44,004 bases of DNA from Anaerolineales bacterium (GCA_037382465.1 JARRPX010000019.1:1-44004); one strand, 5' to 3'. Shown: positions 5,971 to 11,511, counted from the first letter of the stretch. Made by a program: numbers and translations. The notes: generated by a model not told the origin, from the letters alone.

Positions 5971-6327
5971 ATGTCTTCAGGAAAAATCATAGCGTACATC
6001 GCGGCAGCGATACTGATCTTCTTCGGCGTTCTTTTTCTCCTGGGTTCCGGCGCCAGTTCTCAAGGCGTACTCTGGATCATCATCGGCGTAATTCTCGTCG
6101 CCAGCGGCTTCGGCCTGATCTGGTTTGCCGGCCGGGCAGATAAACAAAAAACCGAATTGATTCAAAAAATCGAACTCTCGGGGGACATCAATTTGGAAAC
6201 ACTCACATGCCGAAGCTGCGGCGGTACGCTCACGGCCGACAACGTGAAATTGCTCGCCGGCGCTCCGGTCGTCACCTGCCCGTACTGCGGCGCGAGCTAC
6301 CAGTTGAGTGAAGAACCAAAATGGTAA
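5971..6327 (+). CDS. Small two-helix membrane protein with C-terminal zinc ribbon
   Basis: Not a named family that I recognise. The 118 residues start at an ATG with a GGGAGG ribosome site. Two hydrophobic helices occupy about residues 8-27 and 32-52, joined by a short glycine-serine turn. A soluble tail carries a zinc ribbon made of CRSCGG and CPYCGA, about 22 residues apart, ending EEPKW. With both ends on the same side, the ribbon most likely sits in the cytoplasm. It is the first gene of a five-gene run and lies only 36 bases before the Cys-Ala tail protein. That position suggests an accessory or scaffold role for the same system, but this is inference. Confidence 0.75.
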   Translation: MSSGKIIAYIAAAILIFFGVLFLLGSGASSQGVLWIIIGVILVASGFGLIWFAGRADKQKTELIQKIELSGDINLETLTCRSCGGTLTADNVKLLAGAPVVTCPYCGASYQLSEEPKW

Positions 6328-6363
6328 GCACCCTGTCCTTTTCCCGATTGTGAGGTAAATCGT

Positions 6364-8055
6364 ATGCGACGTCTTCATAAGATTCTCCGACTTGCGCTGC
6401 TAACTGCCGTTCTTCTCGTTCCCCTATCTGCATATGCGCAGACCTACTCCTTTAGTCTGGACAAAATGGACGTTGACGTTTTTTGGGAAGATGACGGTAG
6501 TATGCGCCTCGAATATCTAATGGTATTTACGAACGATGCCAATGCTTCCCCGATCGACTACGTCGATATCGGGTTGCCGACGCAGTATTACAATCTCTCC
6601 AGCGCAGAGGCCAGCGTGGATGGACATCCGATCGGACACATCGCGCCTTCTGCTTACGTTGATTACGGCGTCGAACTGGGCCTTGGTGAGAATGCAATCC
6701 GGCCAGGCGACACCGGCACGGTTCATTTCACGATATCCGGCATACAGGACGTTCTATATTACGACGATGATGACAGCGAATACGTCAGCGCAGTTTTTTC
6801 GCCGCATTATTACGACCGTGACGTTGTACACGGCACTACGGATCTGCTCGTCGTGTTCCATCTACCACCCGGCGTTCAACCGGATGAGCCGCGTTGGCAC
6901 AAATCACCTTCGGGATGGCCATACGATAGCCCCTACACCGACATCGACTCTCAAGGGCGAGTTGTATACGCCTGGGAAAACAAAGACGCCAACGGGTATA
7001 CCCAATACAAATTTGGCGCTTCGTTCCCCCGCAAATACGTCCCCCAGGACGCGATTCTCACACCGAGTATCAGCTATCAATTGGGAATTTCCGAGGAGAC
7101 ACTCTACGGCGGTTTGTGCTGCGGCGGCTTCGTTCTCGTTTTCGGCGGCTTCATCGCACTCGCTACGGTCTTCGCCCGCCGGCGAAAGCTCGCCTACCTG
7201 CCGCCCAAGATCGCCATCGAGGGCCACGGTATCAAACGCGGCCTCACGGCCATAGAAGCGGCTGTTTTGCTCGAAACACCACTGGATCGAGTACTCACCA
7301 TGATCCTGTTTGCCACCATCAAAAAGAACGCCGTGCGCGTCGTTAAAGAGGATCCCCTTGAACTAGAACGCTTGACGCCGAAACCGGAAGGTTTGCGTCC
7401 CTACGAGGAAGAATTCTTGAAAGCCATGATCGACGAAAAACCTCGCAAACGAAAATCGGCGCTCCAGAAATTGATGATCGATCTGGTCCAGGCCGTTCAG
7501 AAGAAGATGAAGGGTTTCAGCCTGAAGGAAACCCGCGATTATTACAAATCGATCATGGAAAAAGCCTGGAAACAGGTCGAGCAGGCCGAGACTCCCGAAG
7601 TTCGATCGCAGCGTTTCGACGATGGGTTGGAATGGACGATGCTCGATCGCGACTTCGACGACCATACACGCCGCACCTTCCGTACGGGGCCCGTATTCGT
7701 ACCTATCTGGTGGGGCAATTACCGTCCATCATACCGGCCTGCAGGAACGAGCGTCCCCAGCACTGGACGCGTGCCGAGTGCGGCACCTGGCCGAGGGATG
7801 ACCTTGCCCAAGCTGCCGGGTTCGGAATTCGCAGCCTCGATCGTAAACGGCGTACAGAATACGGCGAAAAACCTGGTTTCCAACGTCACCTCGTTCACGG
7901 ACGGTGTCACCAAGACGACGAATCCACCGCCGCCGCCTTCCCGCTCCACCCGCAGCTGGTCCTCCGGCGGTGGCGGGGGAGGCAGCAGCTGTGCCTGTGC
8001 CTGCGCATGCGCCTGCGCGGGCTGCGCTTGTGCGTGCGCCGGTGGTGGCCGATGA
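6364..8055 (+). CDS. DUF2207-like membrane protein ending in a Cys-Ala repeat tail (candidate modified substrate)
   Basis: 563 residues. A signal peptide covers about 1-25 (LALLTAVLLVPLSAYAQ), and an extracytoplasmic beta-rich domain runs to about 245. One transmembrane helix follows at about 250-270, ending in ARRRKL. The cytoplasmic part has a winged-helix-like stretch (about 290-330) and a basic helical region. The end is Pro-rich, then Gly-rich, then eight cysteines alternating with alanine (residues 543-559), then GGGR. The layout matches the DUF2207/YciQ type, whose C-terminus is usually Gly/Ser-rich; the Cys-Ala version is the odd part. With an N-out topology the tail faces the cytoplasm. 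The stop overlaps the start of the radical SAM gene (ATGA), so the two are translationally coupled. Function unknown. Confidence 0.85.
   Translation: MRRLHKILRLALLTAVLLVPLSAYAQTYSFSLDKMDVDVFWEDDGSMRLEYLMVFTNDANASPIDYVDIGLPTQYYNLSSAEASVDGHPIGHIAPSAYVDYGVELGLGENAIRPGDTGTVHFTISGIQDVLYYDDDDSEYVSAVFSPHYYDRDVVHGTTDLLVVFHLPPGVQPDEPRWHKSPSGWPYDSPYTDIDSQGRVVYAWENKDANGYTQYKFGASFPRKYVPQDAILTPSISYQLGISEETLYGGLCCGGFVLVFGGFIALATVFARRRKLAYLPPKIAIEGHGIKRGLTAIEAAVLLETPLDRVLTMILFATIKKNAVRVVKEDPLELERLTPKPEGLRPYEEEFLKAMIDEKPRKRKSALQKLMIDLVQAVQKKMKGFSLKETRDYYKSIMEKAWKQVEQAETPEVRSQRFDDGLEWTMLDRDFDDHTRRTFRTGPVFVPIWWGNYRPSYRPAGTSVPSTGRVPSAAPGRGMTLPKLPGSEFAASIVNGVQNTAKNLVSNVTSFTDGVTKTTNPPPPPSRSTRSWSSGGGGGGSSCACACACACAGCACACAGGGR
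7990..8040 (+). repeat. Cys-Ala dipeptide repeat tail: (Cys-Ala)x5, Gly, (Cys-Ala)x3
   Basis: Translated tail of the upstream membrane protein. Cysteine is written as both TGT and TGC, and alanine as GCC, GCA, GCG and GCT, in mixed order. The regularity is therefore in the protein and not in the DNA, which argues for selection on the peptide and against a recent slipped microsatellite. The tail is flanked by Gly6-Ser2 and GGGR. Confidence 0.9.
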
Positions 8056-9437
8056 TGTTGTTCCGACGCGCGGCTTCCGGAATCGGAAACAACGACCCGA
8101 AACCGGACCTCTATGACTATACGAATAGGCGTGGTCGGGATCGAGTCCGCATTCACCTGCGCGTGCACCCAGACGGCAGCGGTCTGCTGCTCATCAACGC
8201 CCAACGCGCTTTTCATCTCAACCCCACCGCAGCATTCATGGCGTGGCTGCAGCTCGAGGGCTTCTCACAAGACGACGCTCTCCACGCCCTGCGTAAACGC
8301 TACCGGGTTGGCCCACGACAGGCGCTGCAAGATTTCTGCGACGTACGCGCCATGATCGACCAGATCATCGATCCAAACGGCGCCTGCCCGGTCTGCGATC
8401 TCGAACTCGATCTGCTGCCGCCTTTCTCCGAAATACCCTCCGCCCCATACCGCATGGACCTGGCGGTCACGTACCGCTGCAACGCCAACTGCGCCCACTG
8501 CTACAACGCAAGGCCGCGCAACTATCCCGAGATCGATACGCAAGCCTGGTTCTCCATCATCGACCGCATCCACGAGATCGGGATTCCCCACATCTGCTTC
8601 ACGGGCGGCGAGGCCACGCTGCGCGAAGACCTGCCGCAGCTCATCCACCGCGTGCAATCCCACGGCCAGATTGCAGGTTTGCTCACGAACGGCCGCCGTC
8701 TGGCAGACATGGCCTTTCTCGATCGACTCATCGACGCCGGCCTCGACCACGTCCAGATCACGCTCGAATCACACATTCCGGAAATTCACGATCGCATGGT
8801 GCGTGCACCGGGCGCCTGGAACGACACAGTTCGAGGCATACGCAACGCCGTGGATCGGGATCTCTACATCATGACCAACACGACGCTGCTGCTGGATAAC
8901 GCCCCACGGATCGGCGAGACCATCGCTTTTTTGTCCGAATTGGGCGTACCGACCGTTGGATGCAACGCCTTGATCTTGTCCGGCCGCGGGAAACAGGTCG
9001 GTACGGGAATCCCGGAAGACCAACTCGTACCCTTGCTGGAGGAAGCCCGCGAACGTACGCAGCGCTACGGGCAGCGGCTCATCTGGTACACACCGACACA
9101 GTATTGTCATTTCGACCCCATCCAGATGGAACTCGGCGTCAAAGCATGCACGGCGGCGATGTACAACATGTGTGTCGAACCGGACGGCGCGGTGATCCCC
9201 TGCCAGTCCTTCTACCAATCACTCGGCAATATGCTCGACGACTCCTGGGAAAGCATCTGGGAGCACGAACTTGCCGTGTGGCTGCGCGAACGGCGCTATG
9301 CGCCGGATAAATGCCAGGTCTGCGACGTATTCAACGAATGCGGCGGGGGCTGCCCTTTGACGCTGCTGCACGAGGAACAAACCCCCATGCCTCAGAATCT
9401 CGAGGCACCCTTCGTGCTGCTGAAAAATGAGTCTTGA
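8052..9437 (+). CDS. Radical SAM/SPASM peptide-modifying enzyme with N-terminal PqqD-like domain
   Basis: Predicted to cleave S-adenosylmethionine reductively and modify a ribosomal peptide. The frame is open from 7632, but the start is the ATG at 8052, overlapping the preceding stop; anything earlier lies inside the tail gene in another frame. The result is 461 residues. Residues about 32-105 form a PqqD/RRE-like domain (LLLINAQRAFHLNPTAA ... ALRKRYRV). A CPVC pair follows at 112-115. The radical SAM cluster is C143, C147 and C150, with the glycine motif FTGGEATLRED. The C-terminal SPASM domain has seven cysteines: C-X7-C-X9-C, then CQVC-X5-C-X3-C. An RRE fused to a SPASM enzyme is the plan of RiPP maturases. 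The Cys-Ala tail is its most likely substrate. Confidence 0.9.
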   Translation: MMLFRRAASGIGNNDPKPDLYDYTNRRGRDRVRIHLRVHPDGSGLLLINAQRAFHLNPTAAFMAWLQLEGFSQDDALHALRKRYRVGPRQALQDFCDVRAMIDQIIDPNGACPVCDLELDLLPPFSEIPSAPYRMDLAVTYRCNANCAHCYNARPRNYPEIDTQAWFSIIDRIHEIGIPHICFTGGEATLREDLPQLIHRVQSHGQIAGLLTNGRRLADMAFLDRLIDAGLDHVQITLESHIPEIHDRMVRAPGAWNDTVRGIRNAVDRDLYIMTNTTLLLDNAPRIGETIAFLSELGVPTVGCNALILSGRGKQVGTGIPEDQLVPLLEEARERTQRYGQRLIWYTPTQYCHFDPIQMELGVKACTAAMYNMCVEPDGAVIPCQSFYQSLGNMLDDSWESIWEHELAVWLRERRYAPDKCQVCDVFNECGGGCPLTLLHEEQTPMPQNLEAPFVLLKNES

Positions 9438-9454
9438 CGGAAAGGAACACGCCG

Positions 9455-10609
9455 ATGAATTCGATTCTTGAGCGTTTCTTTGCACCCGCTGCAATCCCCG
9501 AACCATTAAAACCCGGGCTTTATCAATGGAAAACGCCCGACGACGCACCCGTTCAGTATCGCCTTCACCTGCGCATCGAAGATGAGGGAATGGGCGTTTT
9601 GATCGTCAATGCGGCGACGGTCCTGCACCTGAACCAGACGGCCACCGAACACGCATACCTGCTCGTTCAAGGCGTCAGCGAAGAGGAAGCCGCCCGGGTT
9701 ATATCCGAGCGCTACCGCGTCAGCTACAAGCAAGCACTCAAGGACCACCGCGAGTTCCGGGATCAAATCGAAACCCTGGCGACCAATCCCGAAGTCGATC
9801 CGGTGATGTTCCTCGATTTCGACCGTAAAGAGCCGCTCGACGTAACGCCCTCCGCACCGTACCGCATGGACCTTGCGTTAACCTACCGCTGTGACGCCAG
9901 CGGCAAAATCGATCCCCTTGCCAAACACCGTGTGGATCGAGAGTTGACGACGGAAGAATGGGAGTCGATCCTGGATAAAATCTGGGATGCCGGCGTGCCC
10001 CACGTCACCTTCACGGGTGGAGAACCCACGTTGCGGGATGACCTGCGCGAATTGATCGCCCACGCTGAAAAACTCGGTCAAGTCACCGGGCTGCTGACCG
10101 ATGGGAAACGTCTGGCCCAGGCGGCGTATCTGGAAGACCTCGCGCAGGCCGGCCTGGATCACATTCTCGTGGCCATCGATCTTTCCGATTCAAAGAGCGA
10201 AGCGGGACTGCGAAACGCCGTCGCTTCGGATGTCTACACGGCCGCACACCTGACGATCACGCCCGAAAATTCCGCATCTATCAACGACAATCTCAAACAC
10301 CTGGCCGATCTCGGCGTGCCGGCGGTTTCTCTCTCGGCATCGGATCGAAGCAAGGAGCTGGCCAATGCATTGTCCAGAGCGCGCGATCATGTCGCCATGT
10401 TGGGATTGGATTTGATCTGGGATCTGCCTGCGCCGCATTCCGCCACGAACCCGCTCGCACTCGAACTGGAAGCCCCGCCGGAAACCGCCGGACATGCATA
10501 TCTATACGTCGAACCGGACGGGGACGTCCTTCCCGCGCAAGGTTACGAAAAAACCATCGGCAATTTACTGACGGATTCCTTCGACAAGATTTGGGCGCAC
10601 GAAGCATAG
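9455..10609 (+). CDS. PqqD-like/radical SAM-fold protein lacking the iron-sulfur cluster ligands (probable pseudoenzyme)
   Basis: Paralogue of the preceding enzyme, 384 residues. The ATG at 9455 has a GGAAAGGA ribosome site; the frame is also open from a TTG at 9434. The PqqD-like part is well kept (LIVNAATVLHLNQTA ... ISERYRVSYKQAL). The barrel starts with the same APYRMDLALTYRC, but only C146 of the CX3CX2C motif remains. The other two positions are Gly150 and Asp153. The SAM-binding FTGGEPTLRDD stretch is retained. The end is shorter: where the paralogue has its SPASM cysteines this protein reads YVEPDGDVLPAQGYE and stops at IWAHEA. The frame is intact, so this looks like a maintained partner, perhaps for peptide presentation, and not a decaying gene. 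Confidence 0.85.
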   Translation: MNSILERFFAPAAIPEPLKPGLYQWKTPDDAPVQYRLHLRIEDEGMGVLIVNAATVLHLNQTATEHAYLLVQGVSEEEAARVISERYRVSYKQALKDHREFRDQIETLATNPEVDPVMFLDFDRKEPLDVTPSAPYRMDLALTYRCDASGKIDPLAKHRVDRELTTEEWESILDKIWDAGVPHVTFTGGEPTLRDDLRELIAHAEKLGQVTGLLTDGKRLAQAAYLEDLAQAGLDHILVAIDLSDSKSEAGLRNAVASDVYTAAHLTITPENSASINDNLKHLADLGVPAVSLSASDRSKELANALSRARDHVAMLGLDLIWDLPAPHSATNPLALELEAPPETAGHAYLYVEPDGDVLPAQGYEKTIGNLLTDSFDKIWAHEA

Positions 10610-10619
10610 ATCGAACGGC

Positions 10620-11393
10620 ATGAAGCACGATCCCGATCTCATCGAAATCCACAACCGCTACCTGATTCAAGCGAGGTGGACGGCCGCGATTCGCACGCAG
10701 TGGCTCGAGCGATTGGCGCCGCGGGCCTCGCAGCGCGTGCTGGAAGTTGGATCCGGAACCGGTGCGATCATTTTCGAAATCGCAGATGGATACAACTGTT
10801 CCACCTTCGGTTTGGATATTGATCCGCACGCTTCCCACTTCGCCCAGGCACACGATGCCAAAACCCGTTATACGATCGGCGACGGTATGGAATTGCCTTT
10901 CCCCGAAGCAACTTTCGACTTCACGATTTGCCACTTCCTTCTCTTGTGGCTCGAATCGCCCGTCCAGGCTTTAGCGGAGATGAGACGCGTGACCCGTCCC
11001 GGTGGTTGGGTGCTTGCCCTGGCCGAGCCGGATTACGGTGGGCGTATCGATTATCCCGATTCGCTTGCCGAAGTCGGCGCGCTTCAGGAACAAGCGCTGC
11101 AGCAGCAGGGATGCGACACACGCATCGGCCGGAAACTGAGGCGCTTGTTCCACGAACTTGATTTGACGGATATCTGCGTCGGCGTTCTCGGCGGCGAATG
11201 GCGTGCGTCGACGATAGCCGAGATGTTCGAATCCGAACGCCAGACGCTGGTCCACGATCTCGAGCCGATCCTTCCTCCCCATGAGATCGAAAGGCTTCAG
11301 CGGATCGATCAGCGTGCATGGCACGATGGCCAACGCCTGCTTTTCGTCCCAACGTTTTATGCCGGAAGCCAGGTTCCGAAACCGGAACTGTGA
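10620..11393 (+). CDS. Class I SAM-dependent methyltransferase
   Basis: 257 residues. Motif I is VLEVGSGTGAI (about 40-50), followed by the acidic residue after strand 2 (GLDIDPHA). The post-motif is GDGMELPFPEATFDFTICHF and motif III is RVTRPGGWVLALAEP. This is the UbiE/Methyltransf_11 type, which methylates small molecules or peptides. It starts 10 bases after the pseudoenzyme and is the last gene before a terminator, so it belongs to the same transcription unit as the radical SAM proteins. It may act on the same product or on a small molecule; the sequence alone does not decide. Confidence 0.85.
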   Translation: MKHDPDLIEIHNRYLIQARWTAAIRTQWLERLAPRASQRVLEVGSGTGAIIFEIADGYNCSTFGLDIDPHASHFAQAHDAKTRYTIGDGMELPFPEATFDFTICHFLLLWLESPVQALAEMRRVTRPGGWVLALAEPDYGGRIDYPDSLAEVGALQEQALQQQGCDTRIGRKLRRLFHELDLTDICVGVLGGEWRASTIAEMFESERQTLVHDLEPILPPHEIERLQRIDQRAWHDGQRLLFVPTFYAGSQVPKPEL

Positions 11394-11430: not shown

Positions 11431-11465
11431 AAACATCCCGGTGGCGGATCGTCACCGGGATGTTT
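11431..11465. terminator. Bidirectional intrinsic terminator between two convergent genes
   Basis: A perfect 13-base-pair stem (AAACATCCCGGTG with CACCGGGATGTTT) surrounds a 9-base loop. On the minus strand the stem is followed by a T-rich run (complement of AAACAAAA at 11423-11430), which suits the end of fhs. On the plus strand only a short T run follows, so termination of the methyltransferase transcript may be weaker. Confidence 0.85.
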
Positions 11466-11511
11466 CGTGATACGTGAGTTCCGCTTTTAGAACAAACCGA
11501 CGATCTTGCCG

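Follow-up and report, generated by a model that had tools for sequence, protein, structure and literature searches.

Near-obligate pairing of Cys-Ala-tailed membrane proteins with a radical SAM/SPASM enzyme: a candidate protein modification system

The window analysed here, a stretch of 44,004 nucleotides from an Anaerolineales bacterium, harbors between positions 5971 and 11393 five genes that ORF calling placed on the plus strand throughout, with intergenic gaps of 36, -4, 17 and 10 bases (Table 1). This is the closely spaced, same-strand arrangement that the initial annotation had described, including the ATGA at 8052-8055, in which the start codon of the radical SAM gene (RSAM) overlaps the stop codon of the tail gene, and the methyltransferase as last gene. 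None of these window proteins reached an NCBIfam cut-off, and no MNIO (DUF692) enzyme is encoded among the five genes. PADLOC matched only generic elements, a viperin-like barrel and a methyltransferase, and a defence system was rejected on this ground. A homologue of the zinc-ribbon protein is found in 41 of 59 loci that have both tail protein and RSAM, among the matches listed, and an analogous protein is present in the CHSAC-type operons described below. The methyltransferase gene and a formate-THF ligase-like gene converge, and between them a near-perfect hairpin lies at about 11431-11469. It had been taken as the terminator that closes the operon; a hairpin is indeed present, but its long T-run is on the minus strand (seven Ts versus three on the plus strand), so that it fits the convergent gene no worse; probably it terminates the minus-strand gene or acts in both directions.

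Table 1 Genes of the operon and predicted parts of the tail protein in the window
Feature	Position	Strand	Description
Zinc-ribbon membrane protein	5971..6327	+	118 aa, two predicted TM helices, CxxC...CxxC
Tail protein, putative modification substrate	6364..8055	+	563 aa, single-span membrane protein
Extracytoplasmic beta-sandwich (predicted)	6439..7035	+	aa 26-224 of tail protein
TM helix (predicted)	7093..7191	+	aa 244-276, ARRRK at its end
Cytoplasmic helical, winged-helix-like domain (predicted)	7225..7743	+	aa 288-460; conserved in CHSAC-type proteins too
Juxta-tail segment, conserved	7810..7932	+	aa 483-523, FTxxVTxxTNPPP
Cys-Ala tail, proposed modified core	7990..8052	+	aa 543-563, CACACACACAGCACACAGGGR
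RSAM, putative maturase	8052..9437	+	RRE (PqqD-like) / radical SAM / SPASM
PSAM, ligand-less RSAM paralogue	9455..10609	+	RRE-like part kept, CxxxCxxC gone
Class I SAM methyltransferase	10620..11393	+	Methyltransf_11, 7e-20

The AlphaFold model of the tail protein (mean pLDDT 84) comprises a signal peptide, a beta-sandwich, a TM helix and a cytoplasmic helical domain; a conserved helical segment comes next, and the tail itself is disordered. Because the TM helix ends with ARRRK, everything downstream of it, the tail included, is predicted to be cytoplasmic, which would place the tail on the same side of the membrane as RSAM. Among known structures the beta-sandwich is most like residues 227-442 of Ost1/ribophorin I, its second luminal domain (Z 17.6, rmsd 2.8, 184 aligned residues; next group at about 12.7). 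This likeness in fold is confined to residues 26-224, and the Ribophorin_I profile (PF04597) matched 0 of 47 tail-protein members. A separate PF04597 protein is encoded in all five Asgard genomes tested, and the tail protein was rejected as an Asgard 'ribophorin I' on that basis. A PDB sequence search with the tail protein gave nothing significant, and at E 0.1 the window protein had no Pfam match. The protein had been called a DUF2207-like precursor, but the profiles lend no support to this: they were silent for the window protein at 0.1, and DUF2207 (PF09972) matched none of the 47 members at E 0.01. A relationship to DUF2207 was rejected on these profiles; the ectodomain resembles ribophorin I/Ost1 instead. 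The TIGR04222 domain was likewise not matched in the window protein (E 0.1) or in a CHSAC-type protein (0.01).

The C terminus of the window protein reads SCACACACACAGCACACAGGGR, that is (CA)5-G-(CA)3-GGGR (7990-8052); the (Cys-Ala)5-Gly-(Cys-Ala)3 end noted at the outset is found in the translation and is followed by GGGR. In Cys-Ala-type homologues from the class genomes the C termini have the general form (CA)2-5-G-(CA)3-4-GGGR. This tail is invariant in 47 of 47 aligned homologues, whose overall identity to the window protein is 29-63%, and no other long stretch reaches 100% in every column; the flanking linker drifts. Hits of a whole-protein search, unselected for the tail, have the same end motif wherever the C terminus could be read. 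Synonymous codons differ at every tail position, wobble codons and the Arg codon being free to vary. Since the codons vary between species while the protein stays constant, an assembly artefact and a simple DNA repeat were both rejected as origin of the tail. The tail is no accident.

RSAM matches the Pfam profiles Radical_SAM (PF04055, 2.6e-22) and SPASM (PF13186, 7.3e-9), and PqqD (PF05402) at 2e-4 with 22.1 bits, just under the Pfam cut-off of 23.4; the PqqD-like/radical SAM/SPASM plan read from the sequence at first is recovered in this way. The cysteines of the CxxxCxxC motif (C143, C147, C150) and the seven SPASM cysteines (C352, C366, C384, C421, C424, C430, C434) are invariant in 28 sequences, and the cluster cysteines are unchanged across tail types. 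In the AlphaFold model of RSAM (pTM 0.86) residues 19-106 form a unit of beta-strands and three helices, so that an N-terminal PqqD-like RRE is found by the near-threshold profile and the model together; with the profile score below the cut-off, its assignment rests partly on the model, a point against the main reading given below. The structures nearest to the model are SkfB (Z 29.3) and SuiB (Z 28.3), in alignments that begin at residues 32 and 23, respectively, and so include the RRE. CteB (Z 25.6), PqqE (25.1), EpeE (18.8) and anSME are also among the matches. By sequence, RSAM is about equally close to the PqqE and NirJ2 profiles. SkfB forms thioethers; PqqE and NirJ2 carry out chemistry other than thioether formation, and the sequence closeness of RSAM to them counts against the main reading.

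PSAM retains the plan of RSAM with weaker Pfam scores. As had been noted, it is a second protein of that plan devoid of cluster ligands: the CxxxCxxC motif and most SPASM cysteines are gone, the RRE-like part is kept. We found 43 such ligand-less homologues across two tail types, on which ground a decayed pseudogene was rejected; most of the type-1 homologues share the same truncated C terminus. In a tree of 121 RSAM and PSAM sequences PSAM makes clades of its own, among type-1 Chloroflexota as well as in type-2 operons. It is possibly a scaffold or a substrate-presenting partner. One genome (G192, 97% complete) has a PSAM gene (L102:2598-3743) but gave no RSAM and no tail; this PSAM is either an orphan partner or the product of an assembly gap. 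The methyltransferase adjoins RSAM in Hod- and Heimdallarchaeota and in three of the four genomes read in which the tail gene lies elsewhere. At three archaeal and Coatesbacteria loci (L235, L236, L238) RSAM and methyltransferase are adjacent and the tail gene is unlinked. As it stays with RSAM where no tail gene is linked, the methyltransferase is tied to the enzyme, not to the tail gene.

The pairing of tail and enzyme was followed through 199 genomes of the class. Homologues of the tail protein, searched with the whole protein and without selection for the tail, occur in 31 of these, and all 31 are RSAM-positive. With a threshold for RSAM of E < 1e-100, which gives 26 genomes, the pattern CAGCACACA matches in 22 of the 199, all of them within the 26; the reversed pattern, used as control, had no match in the 199 genomes. 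The hypergeometric chance of this 22/22 overlap is 1.5e-25 if kinship is ignored, the counts not being phylogenetically independent. The four RSAM genomes without tail (G005, G006, G128, G157) are 68-93% complete, and in the last three RSAM is at or near a contig end. A search across the phylum gave 14 further RSAM-positive genomes, each with a tail adjoining RSAM, and in that set the tail was absent from all six genomes that lack RSAM.

A scan for the tail pattern over 84,980 species genomes yielded at least 119 stretches, and in 80 loci examined among the matches listed the exact motif is the end of a protein in at least 71. RSAM is adjacent in 58 of these 71 tail loci, among the matches listed, many of the others being cut by locus ends. 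Six genomes with no RSAM in view were searched whole and five of them encode it elsewhere; these unlinked enzymes, those of Loki- and Sigynarchaeota included, are 46-56% identical. Tail and enzyme apparently keep company even when unlinked. In the sixth genome (G203, Armatimonadota, with a type-2 tail) RSAM was not matched in the whole-genome search, which counts against the main reading. The expectation that the enzyme is adjacent to the tail holds for most loci; that it is always adjacent does not. Tail proteins commonly occurring without a radical SAM neighbour, the observation set beforehand as decisive against the proposed modification system, were looked for and this was not borne out, as all 22 tail genomes of the class have RSAM. 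A tail that is widespread without the enzyme is rejected by the class-wide, phylum and whole-genome searches alike: the tail is tied to this RSAM family in a near-obligate association.

Among the matches listed, a C-terminal CAGCACACA(CA)GGGR was found in Chloroflexota, Armatimonadota, Planctomycetota, Aminicenantes, Zixibacteria, Coatesbacteria, Fermentibacterota, Acidobacteriota and Edwardsbacteria, and in Asgard archaea of the Hod-, Heimdall-, Loki- and Sigynarchaeota groups. Many of the bacteria are uncultured; Ornatilinea apprima and Leptolinea sp. HRD-7 are among the cultured hosts. Another type of tail, (CHSAC)n with VSRF or VGRF at its end, is borne by proteins of the same membrane architecture (L094-L101, L103, L233; for example L101:5886-7790 and 7794-9206), and all 20 genomes with this tail have RSAM, 19 at E <= 1e-40 and the twentieth with RSAM beside the tail. 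The longer operon of this type also encodes glycosyltransferases (GT4, WecG/TagA), a mevalonate kinase and an InhA-like metalloprotease, besides the zinc-ribbon protein and a 400-aa protein. Operons of type 2, in which the tail ends with GCACACACAGGGR (L086, L087, L091, L092, L118, L132, L152, L154), encode an active RSAM and a ligand-less one that mostly retains the C-terminal SPASM cysteines; the f51 genomes (L086, L092) have two tandem tail proteins. In the tree of 121 sequences the CHSAC enzymes are one fully supported clade and the type-2 Cys-Ala enzymes another, including three loci scored as type 1. The tail-type labels change 10 times on this tree versus a mean of 54.5 after shuffling. 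At the level of sequence, tail type is thereby shown to co-diverge with enzyme clade.

These data are best accommodated, with a probability of about 70%, by an RRE/radical SAM/SPASM maturation module that acts on the cytoplasmic C-terminal tail of a membrane protein. The substrate would be the end of a single-span membrane protein rather than a small secreted peptide. The RRE of RSAM would dock the conserved segment that directly precedes the Gly/Ser linker, and the radical SAM site would then modify the (CA)n-G-(CA)3/4 core; most likely, sulfurs of the cysteines would be joined to carbons of nearby residues in several thioether links. PSAM would help to hold or present the substrate, the methyltransferase would act afterwards on the product or the C terminus, and the mature protein would remain membrane-bound, its cytoplasmic end rigid, modified and rich in sulfur. 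The steps differ in strength. That the adjacent RRE/radical SAM enzyme has the tail as its substrate, as the initial annotation had proposed, is a strong inference on which co-occurrence, co-divergence and kinship to SkfB and SuiB all agree. Thioether chemistry on the tail is suggested with moderate confidence, by analogy to SkfB, SuiB and CteB and by the invariant cysteines. The FTxxVTxxTNPPP segment may be a leader-like docking site for the RRE, the single Gly might form a hairpin turn and methylation might follow the modification, all three being weak suggestions. In a hairpin around the Gly every paired Cys faces an Ala in all (n,m) combinations tested, Ala and Gly being the only core residues besides Cys. 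Known acceptors in sactipeptides and ranthipeptides are usually larger than Ala or Gly, which counts against the main reading. It is tempting to speculate, if on balance doubtful, that the product is a ladder of Cys-Ala thioethers, a nested hairpin around the Gly, possibly lanthionine-like via the beta carbon of Ala, which is then methylated and serves as a membrane-anchored, sulfur-rich prosthetic group in an ancient and widespread module.

RSAM could also modify the tail in another way, by epimerisation to alternating L and D residues, by carbon-carbon links or by desaturation or decarboxylation. Its fold is common to several chemistries, with anSME, PqqE and EpeE among the matches, its nearest relatives by sequence are PqqE and NirJ2, and the strict alternation of the tail would fit epimerisation of every second residue. 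However, the best full-length structural neighbour is the thioether-forming SkfB, EpeE being far behind (Z 18.8 versus 29.3), and epimerisation leaves the invariant Cys at every second position unexplained; we consider such chemistry unlikely.

Still less probable is an unmodified tail that binds metal or an Fe-S cluster as a string of thiolates (CxC, as in metallothioneins), with RSAM acting elsewhere or only aiding assembly. Cu(I) or Zn could be bound well by seven or eight thiols in C-x-C spacing or, in CHSAC tails, by C-x3-C together with His, and the zinc-ribbon partner is conserved, but neither the strict link to an RRE-bearing enzyme, which extends to unlinked genomes, nor the invariant alanines and GGGR would be accounted for. 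That RSAM matures a separate, overlooked small peptide, with the tail protein as a co-inherited partner such as a sensor or exporter, would accord with the short precursor peptides on which most RRE/radical SAM enzymes act. It is very improbable here: the operon gaps leave no room for a peptide gene, the tail type tracks the enzyme clade, and a tail at 100% identity per column is not expected from a protein whose partner has another substrate. The conserved gene set contains no exporter and no leader peptidase, which together with the wide distribution argues against a secreted product as well. That an almost invariant tail has been retained in several phyla and in Asgard archaea speaks for a basic function in the cell, not for an antibiotic.

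Most of what is known of radical SAM peptide maturases concerns secreted peptides, along with a few enzyme subunits. The maturation of the tail, if true, would give these enzymes a new class of substrates and perhaps a new chemistry of cross-links to alanine, and the pairing of tail and enzyme is suggestive of a type of protein modification not described before. For finding the system in genomes, CAGCACACA(CA)GGGR at the C terminus is a simple marker. No published or curated family with these tails and no link of DUF2207 to a radical SAM enzyme was found in the literature searched, most subscription journals being outside it.

The maturases SkfB, SuiB and CteB share with the system described here the RRE, radical SAM and SPASM plan and fold, a Cys-rich core and a leader-like segment. 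In contrast, the candidate substrate here is a tail carried by a membrane protein of 563 aa, the core is (CA)n, and exporter and leader peptidase are missing; the short precursor peptide of sactipeptides and ranthipeptides has no counterpart, since no small gene fits the gaps. PSAM, which lacks the cluster motif, resembles the TIGR04347-type proteins annotated as pseudo-SAM/SPASM, but PSAM has an RRE-like part and scores 58 bits versus a cut-off of 525. For thioethers that a radical SAM enzyme makes in a protein, not in a peptide, QhpD is the precedent; it introduces several of them into QhpC, a functional subunit of quinohemoprotein amine dehydrogenase (PMC8172795). There, however, Cys is linked to Asp or Glu in a small enzyme subunit that has no (CA)n tail, and the system is restricted to the amine dehydrogenase (PMC8172795). 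The nearest analogue is the TIGR04222 membrane proteins with their MNIO (DUF692) enzymes, for which a modification was inferred and in which a Gly/Ser-rich, Cys-bearing C-terminal tail is encoded beside a RiPP-type modifying enzyme (PMC12452194). That system differs in that the enzyme is an MNIO and not a radical SAM protein, the tail is predicted to be periplasmic, the Cys spacing is irregular and the association is loose, with 490 of 1372 genomes lacking MNIO genes (PMC12452194). Compared with these systems, the enzyme follows a known plan; what is new is the candidate substrate, together with its placement and distribution.
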